Translations under genes and position numbers: made by a program
Shown here: positions 4,123 to 11,015 of the stretch, in pieces
Position numbering within the stretch: position 1 is the stretch's first letter
How the letters are laid out: the number at the start of each line of letters is the position of its first letter
The notes under the pieces: generated by a model
Database searches by the model: none
What the model was told of the DNA's origin: nothing
Seen by the model: only the letters and a program-made list of their open reading frames with translations
Source of the DNA: Caulobacter mirabilis
Lineage (GTDB): Bacteria > Pseudomonadota > Alphaproteobacteria > Caulobacterales > Caulobacteraceae
Direction of reading: 5' to 3'
Length of the DNA stretch: 64,000 bases
Assembly: GCF_002749615.1 (NCBI RefSeq)
Contig: NZ_CP024201.1
Span: forward strand, 3,224,001 to 3,288,000

Positions 4123-7100
4123 CTAGAACTCGAAGGAGATCTGGCCGGTCAGCTCGCTGACGAAGTCGCGCCCGCTGGACAGGTTGCCCTGGTAGTCGAG
4201 GCTGAACTTCGAGCGGTTGCGCCGCAGCTCGCCGCCGATGCCGATGAGCCACTGATCGCGCTCGAACGGATCGGCGAGCACCGAGAAGAGCGGACCGCCC
4301 ACCCAGTCGTCGTACGACAGCTTGGCCAGTTCGGAGTCCTTCAGCTCGCGCTGGTACTCGACGCGGAACCGAGGGGTCAGCAGGCCGAGATCGGTCTTGA
4401 ACGTCCGCTCGCCGCGGGCGCCCAGGGCGATCTTCAGCGAGCTGAGGTCCTGGTCTTCGTAGCGCAGGTTGCCGGCGCCGGCGCCCCGCTCGACATAGGC
4501 GTCGAGCGTGCCGGTGATCGACGAAACCCGGGCGTAGGGCGAGATGAACAGGTCGCCGCGGCGGAAGTCCCAGCCCGCCGAGACGGACAGGATCAGCTGG
4601 TCGCCGCTGCGGCTGCCGACGGCGTAGACGTCGGTCGGCGTCAGGACCCCGGCCGACACCTTGCGGCGCGTGTCGAAGTCCAGTTTGCCGTAGCCGATCA
4701 TGCCGTCGATGAAGGCCCCGTCGACCGGCTGCAGGCTGGCGTACAGGACGCCGAAGTAGTTCGACGCCTCGACGCTCGAGCCCCTGGACCCGACATCGGC
4801 CGTGCTTTGGCCGAAGCCGCCGCCGACGCCGATCGCCAGACGTTCGCTCAGCCGCAGATCGGCGCCCAGGCTGAGCCCGCCGGTGGTGAAGTCGAACTTC
4901 GGTCCGCCGTTCTTGGCGTCGCGCCGCCCGAACTGGATCGAACCGCCGGTCCAGATCGAGACCTGGCCTTCGCCGGCCACGCCCGAACCGGACGCGCCGC
5001 CGCCGCCAGTTCCGCCGCCCGCCATCAGCCCGCGCGGATGCGCCAGGCCCTTGGTCGGATCGGCTGCGGCTATATCGGCCATCGCCTGCGGGCTGAAGTC
5101 GAAGCGGCGGTTCATGTCGATCTCGCGCTGCGTCCAGGGATCGACCAGCCCGCCGTCGGCGAAGCCGAAGCCGAGGGTGATCCCTTGCTGGAAGCGGCGC
5201 GATCCGCCCGAGTGGAGGCTCTCCATCCGGCGACCAAAGTTGCCGATCTGGGTTTCCGCCATCCGCAGCGCAGCGTCGGCCTGGGCCGTCACGATGCCGC
5301 GCACGTCGGGATCCTGGCTCGGGTCAGGGCGAGCCTCGACCTTGACCGTGACCACGCCCGGCGCGGAGACGCCGGAAGCGTTGCTCAGGGTGTAGATCAC
5401 CGTCGCCGAACCGGAGAAGGTCCCGCTGGACTTGAACGCCAGCGAGTAGCCGCGCGCGGCGGCCGTTCCGGTCTCGACGATCTTCGCCTCGCCCGCCCCG
5501 GCCGGCGTCACGCTGACGACGGCGGCGGCGGTGAAGGGCCCGCCGCGGGCGCCCGCGGTCAGGTCGACGACGACCTCCCGGCCCTGGATCGTCGACGCCT
5601 CGATGGGCGCGGCGAGCTGCGGCACGGCGGCCTTCAGCGACAGGGTGAAGGCCTGGGCGACCGAGAACGGCCCGGTCCCTGTCGAGGAGTCGGTGGCGGT
5701 GACCGTGAAGCCGAAGCTTCCGCCCACCGTCGGGACGCCCGAGAGCACCCCGGCCGGCGACAGGGTCAGCCCCGCCGGCAGGGCGCCGGTGGTGACCACG
5801 AACCGATAGGGCGCCGTTCCGCCCGACGCGGTCAGCGTCTGGCTGTAGGCGACCTTCTCCTCGCCGTTCGGCAGCGTCGTCTGGCCGAAGACCAGGGTCG
5901 GCGCCGGAATGGTCAGGGTCACCGTGGCGCCGGCCGCCGCTGCACGAGCCGTACGCGCCCTCGGGTTGTTGGCGATCGGGACCGCCACATAGTCGAAGCT
6001 GTCCTGGCCGAAGTAGCCCGGGGTCGGCGTGTAGGTCACCTTGAAGCCGTCGACGGTCAGGGTCCCGTGCGAGGGCTGGCGGGTGATCTGGATGCCCGAG
6101 GCGTACTGCACCGACGTGGACAGGTCGATCTCGGCCGAGCCGCCGCCGTTGGGCGTCGGCTTGATGTCGACGGTGACCTCCTTCGGCTCCGCCACCGGGG
6201 CCGGCGGAACGCCGACGGTGAACGAGTAGGAAGCCTGAGTCCACGCGCCGAGGCCGGTGCTGGCGTCGACGGCCTTGACGGTGAAGGAGAACGACCCAGA
6301 CGCCGTCGGGACGCCGGTGATGGCCCCATCAGGCGAGAGAGTCAGGCCCGTCGGCAGCGCGCCCGACATCACCGAGAAGGTGTAGGGAGCAGCCCCGCCC
6401 GTTACGGTCAGGACTCCGGCGTAGGGAACTGCCTGCCTCATCTCGTTCGGAAGGACCGGGATGATCCTAAGATCCGGCGCATTGACCCGCACCGAAACCG
6501 TGGCGACGTTCGAGAGCTTGCCGCCGCCGCTCGCCGTGTAGGTGAAGGTGTCGGCGCCCACGTAGCCCTTGGTCGGCGTATAGGTGATCACCATTCCGCT
6601 GACACTAGCCACGCCGTGCGCAGACTGGGTCACGATCTCGACCCCGGTCGGCGTCTGGCCGCTGACCGAGAAGGTCATGTCCATCGCCGTCGGTTGATCG
6701 TAGTCGGCCGTCTCCACACGATCTGCTGCGACCGGACGGATGCCCTCCACGACGCCTTCGTAGAGGCGCTGGATAGAAGCGGGACCAGTCCCTCCAGTCG
6801 AATCTGACGCCGTAACGGTGAAGCTGTAGGGGCCAAAGCTAGCAGGCGTGCCGGAGAGCACGCCCGTGCGGGCGTCCAGGCTCAGGCCGTCCGGCAGCGC
6901 TCCAGCCGTCACCGCGAAGCTGTAGGGCGCGACGCCTCCGGTGGCGATCAGGGTCTGACTATAGGCCACCCCTTGAACAACATCGGACAACGTCGCAAGA
7001 GCCAGGGCAAGCGTCGGCTTGGCGATCTCAAGGGTGTAGTCCTGCGTCGCCACACGCCCATAGTCGACGGTCGACTTCACAGTGAACGAGAAGACACCCG

Positions 7101-9642
7101 CTTCCTTTGGCGTGCCTTCGATACGGATCGGGGCGCCGTTGCCGTTTATCGACAGCCCGGCCGGAAGGACGCCGTTCAGGATCTGATTGGTCGACCCCAG
7201 CGGCGGCGAGAGCTTGATGTCCTGACGATAGGGACGTCCGGCGACGCCTGCCGCCACCGTTTTGGTCTCGATGGTGATCGGATCCAGGTAGTTGAACCAG
7301 AACTGCGACCGTCCGGACCCAGTGGGAGACTCGACCGTCAGGTATCGGAGCTTCGTGCCGTCATTCACCGTCCCAGCGGGCGCAACCGCGGTAATCTGAG
7401 TGTCGCTTAACACCGTGAATGAGGTCGCCGGCGTATCCCCGAACTTTACGCCAGTCGCACCGGTGAAGTTCGCGCCGGTAATGGTGATCTTCGCGCCGCC
7501 TTCCGGATAGCTGAACGCCGGGGTGAAGGAGGAAATCGCAGGCGGCTCGCCAAAGGCGAACCGCGTTCCGGCTCCCGGTGCGCTAGCCCCATTTGCGCTG
7601 ACGACCTTGACCTCCACGACGTCGCCCTGACGGCCCGGAGGGCTGTTGAGCAAAATCAAGGTATCGTGGACAGACCTGAACGGGACGCTCACATCGCCGA
7701 ACAGAACCTGCGTCACCGCGCTGAAGCCGAAGCCAGACAGGTTGACATAGGTGTCGCCGGCGACGGCACCTCGCGGCGGGCTCACATTGGTCAGCGTCGG
7801 CGCGCCGCCTTGGTAGGTGAAGGTTCCTATGGTGGGGCCGGTATAGCCGTTGGTGTTGACGTAGACGCTCACACTACCGTTGCTGCCCGGAGGCGAGACC
7901 GCCTCAAGCAGAGTTGGGCTCACATAGGTCACACTCGCGGCAGGCTTGTCGCCGAACGTAACAGTTGATTCCGGCAGGAAGTCCCTGCCGTTGATGCGAA
8001 CTGTCGTGCCGCCAGTCGCCGGCCCGCTGCCGGGGTTGACGGACTCGACAAGCGAACCGCCGACGTAGTTGAAGACGCTCGCCGAGCTGATCGCGCTCGT
8101 GCCCCCGGCGCTCGTGTCGTCGTGGGTGATGACGCGAACGTTGACGCGCCCCCGCCCGGCCGGCGAGACTGCCGTGATCCGGGTAGGGCTGACTACGACG
8201 ACGTTCGTCGCATAGGCCGTCAAATGGTCCGTGAAGGCGACTTTCGCGTTGCTGGAGAATCCCGTCCCATCGATCGTGATCGGGGTTCCGCCGGCGGCCG
8301 GCCCGGTCGCCGGAGAGATCGCCGTCACCGTGGGAACGCCGGCGTAGGTGAACCGAGAACCGGAGGTGATCGCGCTCTGGCCTGCACCGTTGGTGACCTG
8401 AACATCAACCGTCTCGCCCGTCACGCCGGCGGGAGCGGTGATGGTGAGGGAAGTCGCCGTCCGGGAAACGATCGCCGCATCCAGCGCGCCGAACCGCACG
8501 GCGGTCACGTCGGCAAGATAGGCGCCCGCGATCGTCACGCTCGCCCCAGAAAGCGCGACATGCGGCGAAACGGAGGTGACCACCGGGAGCCCGGGATAGG
8601 TGTAACGCGAACGGGCGTCGGGCGTGCTGGTCCCCATGATCGTCGTGATGACGACGTCCACGGACTGCCCAGGAACGCCGGCGGGAGGCGTCAGATAGAT
8701 GTTGTAGGCGTCGCTGACGCGAACGACCGCGGGCGCGCCGCCGAATGTCACACTCGTGGTGTCCGCGAGCGCGCTGCCGTTGATGCGCAACTCCGATCCG
8801 TTGGGTTGGATCGACGAGATCGTCGGAAGTCCCACGTAGGTGAAAGCCTTGCCGGCGCTGGATCCGCTCGGCGTGGTCACCACGACATCCACATCTCCGG
8901 CCGCTCCCGCCGGAGCGACCGCCGTGATCCGGCCGCCGCTATCGACGGTGAACGAGGTCGCAGGCACGCCACCGAACGTCACCGCCGTCGCGCCTGTGAA
9001 GGCCAAGCCATTGACCTGGACAGTGGTGCCGCCAAGGACGCTGCCCTTGGCTGGAGCCAGATTGTTGATGACCGGCCCGCCGTCATAGGTGAACAGCGAC
9101 GCCGCCGAGGTTGCGCTTACGCCACCGGGCCCCTGGACGGTCACGTGAACCTGACCGGAGCCGTTGGGAACACGAACGGTCAAGGCCCAGGGATAGGTGT
9201 TGCCGATCACCGCAGCCTGAACGCCGCCGAATTTGACGACCGGAGCGTTGCCGAAGTTGCCGCCCGAAATAGTCAGCACCGTTCCGGCAGGGCCGCTGCT
9301 CTGACTGAGGCCCGACACGACCGGTTTCGGCAGGTAGACGAAGGTCGCGGACCACGGGCTCGTGTTCTGGCCATGCGTGTTGCGCACGACGATATCGACA
9401 GTGCCCGTCCCGGAGGGCGAGGTGGCGGTGATCTGAGTGTCGCTCTCGACCGTGAAGCTGGCGGCCGGCTTAGCCCCGAACAGCACCCGGTTCACGCCAG
9501 TGAAGTTGCCGCCCGTGAGACGCACGACGGTGCCGCCTTCTTCCGGGCCGGAAGTGGGGCTTGCTGAACGGATGGCAGGCAGTTGCTCGTAGCTATACTT
9601 GCTGTTCGCGCTGGCCGCCGTGACACCGAGAGGCGTCGTCAC
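4123..9642 (-). CDS. giant IPT/TIG autotransporter, C-terminal frame
   Basis: 1,839 residues, frame-shifted from the N-terminal part at 9639-11015. It opens in mid-repeat ('TTPLGVTAASANSKYSY'), so its GTG is not a true start. Order: about nine IPT/TIG Ig-like repeats (residues ~20-800, each with a 'VxFG...FTV' beat); putative-Ig (He_PIG-like) repeats marked by 'GALPxGLxLxxxxGxLxGxP'; two cadherin-like units ('VTYTPTPGYFGQDSFDY'); and a linker. The last ~280 residues form an outer-membrane autotransporter beta-barrel ending in 'QISFEF', with the terminal Phe expected of a BAM substrate. It is probably a surface adhesin or passenger. Without the upstream signal peptide this frame could not be exported, so it is expressed only if the frames are joined. 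Confidence 0.85.
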   Translation of the reverse strand: MTTPLGVTAASANSKYSYEQLPAIRSASPTSGPEEGGTVVRLTGGNFTGVNRVLFGAKPAASFTVESDTQITATSPSGTGTVDIVVRNTHGQNTSPWSATFVYLPKPVVSGLSQSSGPAGTVLTISGGNFGNAPVVKFGGVQAAVIGNTYPWALTVRVPNGSGQVHVTVQGPGGVSATSAASLFTYDGGPVINNLAPAKGSVLGGTTVQVNGLAFTGATAVTFGGVPATSFTVDSGGRITAVAPAGAAGDVDVVVTTPSGSSAGKAFTYVGLPTISSIQPNGSELRINGSALADTTSVTFGGAPAVVRVSDAYNIYLTPPAGVPGQSVDVVITTIMGTSTPDARSRYTYPGLPVVTSVSPHVALSGASVTIAGAYLADVTAVRFGALDAAIVSRTATSLTITAPAGVTGETVDVQVTNGAGQSAITSGSRFTYAGVPTVTAISPATGPAAGGTPITIDGTGFSSNAKVAFTDHLTAYATNVVVVSPTRITAVSPAGRGRVNVRVITHDDTSAGGTSAISSASVFNYVGGSLVESVNPGSGPATGGTTVRINGRDFLPESTVTFGDKPAASVTYVSPTLLEAVSPPGSNGSVSVYVNTNGYTGPTIGTFTYQGGAPTLTNVSPPRGAVAGDTYVNLSGFGFSAVTQVLFGDVSVPFRSVHDTLILLNSPPGRQGDVVEVKVVSANGASAPGAGTRFAFGEPPAISSFTPAFSYPEGGAKITITGANFTGATGVKFGDTPATSFTVLSDTQITAVAPAGTVNDGTKLRYLTVESPTGSGRSQFWFNYLDPITIETKTVAAGVAGRPYRQDIKLSPPLGSTNQILNGVLPAGLSINGNGAPIRIEGTPKEAGVFSFTVKSTVDYGRVATQDYTLEIAKPTLALALATLSDVVQGVAYSQTLIATGGVAPYSFAVTAGALPDGLSLDARTGVLSGTPASFGPYSFTVTASDSTGGTGPASIQRLYEGVVEGIRPVAADRVETADYDQPTAMDMTFSVSGQTPTGVEIVTQSAHGVASVSGMVITYTPTKGYVGADTFTYTASGGGKLSNVATVSVRVNAPDLRIIPVLPNEMRQAVPYAGVLTVTGGAAPYTFSVMSGALPTGLTLSPDGAITGVPTASGSFSFTVKAVDASTGLGAWTQASYSFTVGVPPAPVAEPKEVTVDIKPTPNGGGSAEIDLSTSVQYASGIQITRQPSHGTLTVDGFKVTYTPTPGYFGQDSFDYVAVPIANNPRARTARAAAAGATVTLTIPAPTLVFGQTTLPNGEEKVAYSQTLTASGGTAPYRFVVTTGALPAGLTLSPAGVLSGVPTVGGSFGFTVTATDSSTGTGPFSVAQAFTLSLKAAVPQLAAPIEASTIQGREVVVDLTAGARGGPFTAAAVVSVTPAGAGEAKIVETGTAAARGYSLAFKSSGTFSGSATVIYTLSNASGVSAPGVVTVKVEARPDPSQDPDVRGIVTAQADAALRMAETQIGNFGRRMESLHSGGSRRFQQGITLGFGFADGGLVDPWTQREIDMNRRFDFSPQAMADIAAADPTKGLAHPRGLMAGGGTGGGGASGSGVAGEGQVSIWTGGSIQFGRRDAKNGGPKFDFTTGGLSLGADLRLSERLAIGVGGGFGQSTADVGSRGSSVEASNYFGVLYASLQPVDGAFIDGMIGYGKLDFDTRRKVSAGVLTPTDVYAVGSRSGDQLILSVSAGWDFRRGDLFISPYARVSSITGTLDAYVERGAGAGNLRYEDQDLSSLKIALGARGERTFKTDLGLLTPRFRVEYQRELKDSELAKLSYDDWVGGPLFSVLADPFERDQWLIGIGGELRRNRSKFSLDYQGNLSSGRDFVSELTGQISFEF

Positions 9643-11015
9643 GACGACGTCGACGACTCCGGTCCCCGGGGGGTCACAGCCAGGATCCGACTGCTGGACA
9701 CAACGACAAAGGTCGCACTGGCGGAACCGAACTGGACCGCAGTCGCGCCGCCAAGGTTGTAGCCGTAGATCTCAATCTCATCGCCGCCCGTGGATGGGCC
9801 GCGGCTCAGTCCCAGGCTGTTTACGCGAGGCTCGCTCACGTAGGTGAAGGCCGTCGCAGGCCCGGTCGCGCTAACACCGTGCGGCGTGGTGACGGTCACC
9901 TGCTGTTGGCCGACGCCGGGTGGCACTGCGGCGACGATGAAGTCTTCGCGATAGAAGATCGCGTTCGGCGATGCGACCTCGCCGAACTTGACGGTCAGCG
10001 GCTGAGCAAAACCGACGCCGTTGATCGTCAGCATGTTGCCGCCTTCAGGCGCGCTTTCGTTGAAGCCGATCGAACTGACGATAGGAGCGCCGAGAACGTA
10101 GAACGATGCCGCCGTGGCGGTCCCCATCGGGGTCGTCATCGCGACCGGGTGACTGCCGGAAACGAGACCGCCTGGGACTGTGACCTTCAGCTCCGTATCG
10201 CTCGTGACGCTGAAGCTGGCTGCCACACCGCCGATGGTGACGGACGTCATCCCGGTGAAGCCGACGCCGGTGTAGGTGATCTCAGACCCCGCGGGCCCAC
10301 GATAGATCGTGGCGGTGGTGACCTTGGCGGGCCCCGTCGCCCGATAGATCGTCCGAGCGGTCTCTCCACTTGCGCCGGTGACGATGATGTCGGCGCTCAC
10401 CCCCTGGGCCACCGGACGGGTCGTCAGCGTAATCTGGCCGTCGCTGTCGACGGTGAACGGCACGCCCCAGCCGGCGAAGCTGACGCCTCTCGCGCCCGTG
10501 AAGTTCTGTCCGGTCAGGACGACCTGACGCGTCTCAGAATGCAGGCCGTAGCCCGGGTTGACCGAGGTGATGACCGGCGCTGCGGCATAGGAAAACTTGC
10601 TGGCGGCGGTGACCGGGGTGGATCCATATGAGGTGGTCACTACAACGTCCACTGTCGTCCCAGCGACGCCCGGCGGCGTCCGAACCTCAATGAACGTTGG
10701 ATCTTCCCGCAACGTCATGACCTGCGTTCCGCCGAATCTTACGGTGATCCCGGGGCCGGGTATCGGACGAAGGTTGACGCCTGTAATGGTGACCGTCTCG
10801 CCACCAGCGACACGCCCCGCGGAAGGGCTCACGCTCGTTATTTCGGGCGCGCCCTGCCCATATTGAGCCCACGCCGGCGTCGGCGTCGCCCCCAGCGCGC
10901 CGACGAGCAGCGCCGCGCACCAGGCGAACGCCAGGCCGACCGCCTTCAAGGGAGAAATCCAAGCCGCGCGCGAACCCGCGCGCCGCGCGAAACCGCGCAA
11001 CGCCACCGAAACCAT
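9639..11015 (-). CDS. giant IPT/TIG autotransporter, N-terminal frame
   Basis: 458 residues from the ATG at 11015; a TTG six bases upstream is also possible. The N-terminus is a long basic-then-hydrophobic signal sequence, 'GLAFAWCAALLVGALGA', cleaved near 'AWAQ'. Such extended signals are common in large autotransporters. Five IPT/TIG repeats follow, each about 85 residues. The frame then breaks in the fifth repeat, giving an alien tail 'RGPESSTSS' and a stop. Adding one base at the homopolymer around 9664-9673 restores 'TPPGTGVVDVVVTTPLG' and joins this frame to the downstream 1,839-residue one, for about 2,297 residues in total. Confidence 0.82.
   Translation of the reverse strand: MVSVALRGFARRAGSRAAWISPLKAVGLAFAWCAALLVGALGATPTPAWAQYGQGAPEITSVSPSAGRVAGGETVTITGVNLRPIPGPGITVRFGGTQVMTLREDPTFIEVRTPPGVAGTTVDVVVTTSYGSTPVTAASKFSYAAAPVITSVNPGYGLHSETRQVVLTGQNFTGARGVSFAGWGVPFTVDSDGQITLTTRPVAQGVSADIIVTGASGETARTIYRATGPAKVTTATIYRGPAGSEITYTGVGFTGMTSVTIGGVAASFSVTSDTELKVTVPGGLVSGSHPVAMTTPMGTATAASFYVLGAPIVSSIGFNESAPEGGNMLTINGVGFAQPLTVKFGEVASPNAIFYREDFIVAAVPPGVGQQQVTVTTPHGVSATGPATAFTYVSEPRVNSLGLSRGPSTGGDEIEIYGYNLGGATAVQFGSASATFVVVSSSRILAVTPRGPESSTSS
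9664..9673. other. C4G6 homopolymer at the frameshift junction
   Basis: The plus strand reads CCCC then GGGGGG, so the coding strand has C6G4. One more base here makes the distance from the ATG at 11015 to the stop at 4123 a whole number of codons (6,894 bases) and restores the TIG repeat consensus. It could be a sequencing or assembly slip, a real loss-of-function mutation, or slipped-strand phase variation. Confidence 0.8.

Follow-up and report, generated by a model that had tools for sequence, protein, structure and literature searches.

A giant TIG-repeat autotransporter gene of Caulobacter mirabilis divided between two reading frames at a C6G4 run, tentatively ascribed to a run-length miscall

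Why a large surface adhesin should be deposited in two reading frames is the question raised by a locus of Caulobacter mirabilis. In the window, by which we mean the whole stretch of 64,000 nucleotides analyzed here, the list of open reading frames and their translation reveal a single giant TIG-repeat autotransporter gene on the minus strand that is read in two frames (Table 1). The first-pass annotation offered two explanations, a slip in the assembly or an on/off contingency switch. The former is still likely and the latter is without positive evidence, and the pair was incomplete: a third possibility of roughly the same likelihood as the assembly slip, a simple null mutation of recent date, had been left out.

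Table 1. Features of the adhesin locus, of two other genes broken at runs and of two adhesin paralogs. Positions are those of the window unless a contig (C1) is given.
Feature	Position	Strand	Length	Basis or remark
Window	3224001-3288000			Contig positions; part of the single-contig Caulobacter mirabilis genome of 4,577,265 bases
N-terminal frame, putative leader and TIG repeats 1-5, the fifth truncated	9639..11015	-		ORF list, Pfam, translation
Putative Sec signal peptide, residues 1-50, ending in AWA	10866..11015	-		Translation, by eye
Four intact TIG repeats, N-terminal frame	9840..10847	-		PF01833 matches
TIG repeat divided over both frames	9594..9830	-		PF01833; two pieces match 1-57 and 55-83 of the TIG profile
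C6G4 run (C4G6 on the plus strand), site of the frame change	9664..9673	-		Sequence, TIG profile, frame screen
GTGA, first downstream in-frame GTG overlapping the upstream stop	9639..9642	-		ORF list, sequence
C-terminal frame, nine TIG, He_PIG, Big_9 and barrel	4123..9642	-		ORF list, Pfam
Nine TIG repeats, C-terminal frame	7342..9579	-		PF01833 matches
Top-scoring He_PIG Ig-like domain in the stalk	6775..6993	-		Pfam
Autotransporter outer-membrane barrel PF03797	4192..4956	-		Pfam; C-terminal residue of the protein is F
Split TonB-dependent receptor	C1:3016784-3018912 (L089 3784-5912)	-		Plug in one half, barrel end in the other
G7 run breaking the TonB receptor	C1:3017337-3017343			
Split M28-type (PSMA-like) peptidase at a G7 run	C1:2816227-2818624 (L145 215-2612)	-		Shift sign opposite to that of the adhesin
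G7 run breaking the M28-type peptidase	C1:2817513-2817519			
Own-genome paralog	C1:3421959-3429395		2478 aa	Barrel region 43% identical; He_PIG, Big_9, 5 TIG
Own-genome paralog	C1:3770384-3779197		2937 aa	Barrel region 41% identical; He_PIG, Big_9 repeats

Taken as a whole, this is a single giant type Va autotransporter gene of ordinary make-up, with a putative leader, 14 TIG repeats, further Ig-like domains and a barrel. The coordinates, the frames and the run were as first annotated, and Pfam confirmed the five TIG stretches reported for the N-terminal frame, the fifth being the split one, as well as the nine TIG repeats and the barrel of the C-terminal frame (PF03797, E 1.8e-48), which also contains four He_PIG and two Big_9 domains. 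The N-terminal frame extends from an ATG at 11015 to a TGA at 9639-9641 (458 residues), and the C-terminal frame is open from 9771, with its first GTG at 9642 and its stop at 4123 (1839 residues). The C-terminal barrel of type Va autotransporters is present, and the leader and barrel that should share one open frame lie in two in the deposited gene.

The reading frame changes once, at the run, and the remainder of the gene is open. A TIG profile was built from 18 other repeats, 13 from the adhesin gene and 5 from a paralog, and the two junction pieces were searched with it separately. The upstream piece matched model positions 1-57 (49 bits) and the downstream piece positions 55-83 (25 bits), so that a single domain spans the run, its remainder being read in the other frame, as the first-pass annotation had proposed from the TIG consensus. 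The frame change sits at a proline-glycine turn encoded by the run itself. The coding-frame model used here assigned the C frame up to 9675, noncoding sequence at 9676-9753 and then the N frame to 10619, and is insensitive at this junction, where one side scores as noncoding. Both frames are open simultaneously for 132 bases only, and the own genome has 69 C/G runs of at least six bases in 455 kb (63 of exactly six), so that about 0.02 such runs would be expected in the overlap by chance. The C6 stretch is the sole run of at least six bases within the adhesin gene, and double C/G runs that, like the one at the junction, reach at least ten bases number only 3 in 455 kb; where nine proline-glycine rows were matched in the C frame, their longest C/G run has 2-5 bases. 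No convincing ribosome-binding site was seen by eye before the downstream GTG at 9642.

Our first choice, which we hold tentatively, is that a miscall in the assembly accounts for the break: the deposited run length would be a residual homopolymer error, and the gene in the cell is probably whole. A study of Mycobacterium smegmatis traced 28 of 73 resequenced interrupted genes to sequencing errors (PMC1852416), and errors in long reads are described as predominantly homopolymer indels (PMC12007338). The frame break is also not special to the adhesin, as at least two unrelated genes in this genome are broken at C/G runs of at least seven bases, a TonB-dependent receptor and an M28-type peptidase with its PA domain in one half and its M28 and TFR dimerization domains in the other. 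The shifts in these two genes have opposite signs, and breakage of unrelated genes at runs, with shifts of both signs, fits run-length miscalls. Since the break is not adhesin specific, an ordinary run-length slip, that is, a miscall or a recent null mutation taken jointly, very probably explains it.

The adhesin was the given case and not a survey result, and the survey of TonB receptors was made without regard to runs. The 92 receptor rows in the own genome reduced to 84 genes after 8 second stretches had been joined by hand, and 83 of these lie in frames of at least 643 residues, with the single exception broken at its G7 run. Across the whole genome, the 94 matches to seven consecutive G or C bases represent 83 distinct C/G runs of at least seven bases. 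By the coding-frame model, 37 of these are flanked by the same frame, 34 have a noncoding side, 3 lie between opposite strands and 9 coincide with a frame change on one strand; on visual inspection, these nine comprise seven ordinary gene junctions plus the broken receptor and peptidase. More broken genes may be hidden among the 34 runs beside noncoding sequence. A frame-change screen of 455 kb of the own genome flagged 5 places. Apart from the adhesin, these resemble ordinary junctions on visual inspection, with some doubt about one of the four (L066). In the same sample, a single frame surrounds 32 of the 75 runs of at least six bases, A/T included, and noncoding sequence adjoins 34, the adhesin junction among them; 2 fall between strands, 1 falls at an edge, and the remaining 6 show frame changes judged by eye to be ordinary junctions.

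Two further runs were noted. At ten bases, the C/G run at C1:596469-596478 (L104 1501-1510) exceeds all others found in the genome; it lies seven bases before a minus-strand ATG, over the likely ribosome-binding site, and is more promising as a length-variable tract than the adhesin run. A G8 run at C1:3438694-3438701 (L154 1501-1508) is in frame, with one frame held over the whole 3-kb stretch according to the coding model, and its surroundings resemble a large repetitive surface protein by eye.

Against a miscall stands the good appearance of the assembly, in which those 37 of 83 runs of at least seven bases are unbroken and only 2 were recognized in broken genes; true mutations favor runs too. 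All 56 MFS transporter rows are in frames of at least 397 residues, 3 of them with internal stops, and poor quality is not visible. Runs of six occur 13.8 times per 100 kb in the own genome versus 32, 17, 14 and 15 times in four relatives, a frequency that resembles three of the relatives and is lower than in the fourth, and runs of at least seven are scarce in all five samples. Matches to seven G/C in a row number 94 in 4.58 Mb here versus 146 in 4.66 Mb, 158 in 5.66 Mb and 128 in 5.69 Mb in relatives, the own genome having the fewest per megabase of the four counted. This is weakly compatible with slight under-calling, and a systematic loss of long runs is not clear.

Nor was an excess of run breaks in the own genome demonstrated over three control relatives (G003, G010 and G011), another point against a miscall. 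The control runs cover part of the matches in these genomes (158, 146 and 128 in all). In G003, 30 runs included 10 within the same frame and 2 frame changes, both ordinary by eye; in G010, 30 runs included 10 within the same frame and 4 frame changes, one of them a broken MFS gene by eye (L221); and in G011, the 6 runs from 10 loci all adjoin noncoding sequence and so are uninformative. A frame-change screen of 400 kb of relatives flagged 14 places, five of which, all within 100 kb of G010 (L079-L083), are clearly broken genes by eye. The G010 assembly thus seems rich in errors or pseudogenes and is a poor standard. The run test on the same relatives gave 8 frame changes (5, 1, 0 and 2), of which one resembles an insertion-sequence transposase and the others ordinary junctions. 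The transposase-like gene (L071, about position 6909, in G048; by eye) switches frame at an A5G6 run, a change that we take to be possibly programmed. In a draft relative, a G20 run and a C11 run close to the end of a contig (L012 32-51 and 78-88, G002:C31) are probably an assembly edge artifact.

If the preferred miscall is correct, an adhesin of 2.3 kilocodons, and perhaps at least two other genes, have been wrongly split and would be annotated as pseudogenes.

The age of the lesion bears on all readings. The first-pass annotation had argued from the intactness of both halves against old decay, and translation found no further stop across 2,297 codons. In this gene 457 single substitutions could create a stop, and the probability of seeing none falls from 0.048 at 2% neutral divergence to 0.010 at 3%. 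The lesion is therefore young or is absent from the cell altogether, and the otherwise open sequence of both halves supports the view that the break is not old decay.

A close second, and a possibility to be taken seriously, is that a real one-base slip in the run recently inactivated the adhesin gene in this strain, with no dedicated switch involved. The N-terminal product would then be exported without an anchor, the C-terminal part would lack a leader and no adhesin would be displayed. The openness of both halves fits such a recent event, as does the small number of run-associated breaks in an otherwise clean genome. The third-position G+C of the two adhesin frames is 0.79 and 0.85 versus 0.94 and 0.93 in the two large paralogs, and the initial 400 bases of the gene score as noncoding in the coding-frame model; the gene may have been acquired or be under less constraint. 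Precedents include Brucella, for which inactivated adhesin autotransporters are reported (PMC8111173), and Campylobacter, where capC is described as lost independently of its G-tract (PMC7168839). Within the present family, an autotransporter of a relative (L029 1083-1424, in G012) has two frame changes about 340 bases apart that are not at long runs. The break lies, however, exactly where assemblies fail too.

It is unlikely, in our view, that the gene is a phase-variable contingency locus in which slipped-strand mispairing at the C6G4 run toggles the adhesin on and off. In favor of it, the run lies within the gene and shifts the frame when it gains or loses bases, the product is a surface protein, and C/G double runs as long as the one at the junction are rare in this genome, as noted above. 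In a study of Bordetella pertussis, the C6 tract of bvgS is named as phase variable, which shows that a short tract can act as a switch, and among the tracts assayed variation was greatest in two autotransporter genes, tcfA and bapC (PMC1891110). Yet in the same report C/G tracts are over-represented only when longer than 8 bases (PMC1891110), and six C is no longer than expected, as 455 kb of the own genome contain 63 C/G runs of exactly that length. The tract is not common to the nine C-frame proline-glycine rows, and unrelated genes, the TonB receptor and the peptidase, are broken likewise. Of 26 other C/G runs of at least six bases in frames of family loci, a set biased to intact genes because the loci were found by one-frame similarity, 25 are in frame, including a G7 and a C8, and 1 is at a gene end. 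A broader version, in which Caulobacter as a free-living alphaproteobacterium uses short C/G runs as contingency switches and the TIG adhesin and the TonB receptor were caught in their "off" phases, we regard as rather improbable. A true switch would mean that a free-living bacterium places surface adhesion under contingency control, a subject absent from the titles of the 9 papers listed in a literature search on Caulobacter.

We consider a deliberate production of both products, by programmed ribosomal frameshifting or by a GTGA-coupled gene pair, highly improbable. A proline tRNA could slip by one base in the right direction on the run, and the first downstream start overlaps the upstream stop. 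However, inspection found no tandem slippery heptamer, the downstream RNA does not fold better than shuffled sequences (z -0.96, equalled by 34 of 200 shuffles), so that neither hallmark of programmed -1 frameshifting was seen, and the split falls inside a TIG domain and leaves the downstream part without a leader. An old, decaying pseudogene is the least probable of all, since the 2,297 codons are free of further stops, even though no full-length ortholog was found in the 74 other genomes of the genus among the best 6 candidates per genome.

Among 75 Caulobacter genomes including that of the adhesin, 22 had matches at E 1e-20; the best in other genomes cover about 490 residues of the barrel end at 43-45% identity, and shorter stretches of repeats reach up to 55% (best 6 candidates per genome throughout). 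The DNA of the junction region has matches in 34 of the 75 genomes at E 0.001, which elsewhere are short pieces only, the best being 145 bases at 72% (best 4 candidates per genome). The comparison with related strains proposed in the first-pass annotation yielded no second strain in a protein scan and in exact-flank scans of genome contigs and viral contigs, from which near relatives were possibly left out. A gene that resembles a two-partner-secretion transporter by eye adjoins the TIG paralog divergently (L049 10685-12403). Of the 9 autotransporter barrel rows listed for the own genome, 4 are weak, one of these with an internal TAA.

Among known systems, the interrupted genes of Mycobacterium smegmatis are similar in being frame breaks in a deposited genome, some of which the report on them ascribes to sequencing errors, with the difference that they were resequenced (PMC1852416). 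Bordetella pertussis bvgS, with its C6 tract, tcfA and bapC share with the adhesin a C/G run within a coding frame, and the latter two are also autotransporter genes; length variation is reported for those tracts (PMC1891110), while a single sequence represents the one studied here. The only solved barrel among the listed relatives is that of EstA (3kvn, E 8.5e-9), and the adhesin differs from it in having a passenger of TIG and He_PIG repeats and not an enzyme. With type Va PF03797 autotransporters in general, the adhesin shares a plausible leader (by eye), an Ig-like passenger and a C-terminal barrel, and it departs from them in being deposited in two frames. Both large paralogs of the same genome, unlike the deposited adhesin, lie in one open frame and have a higher third-position G+C.
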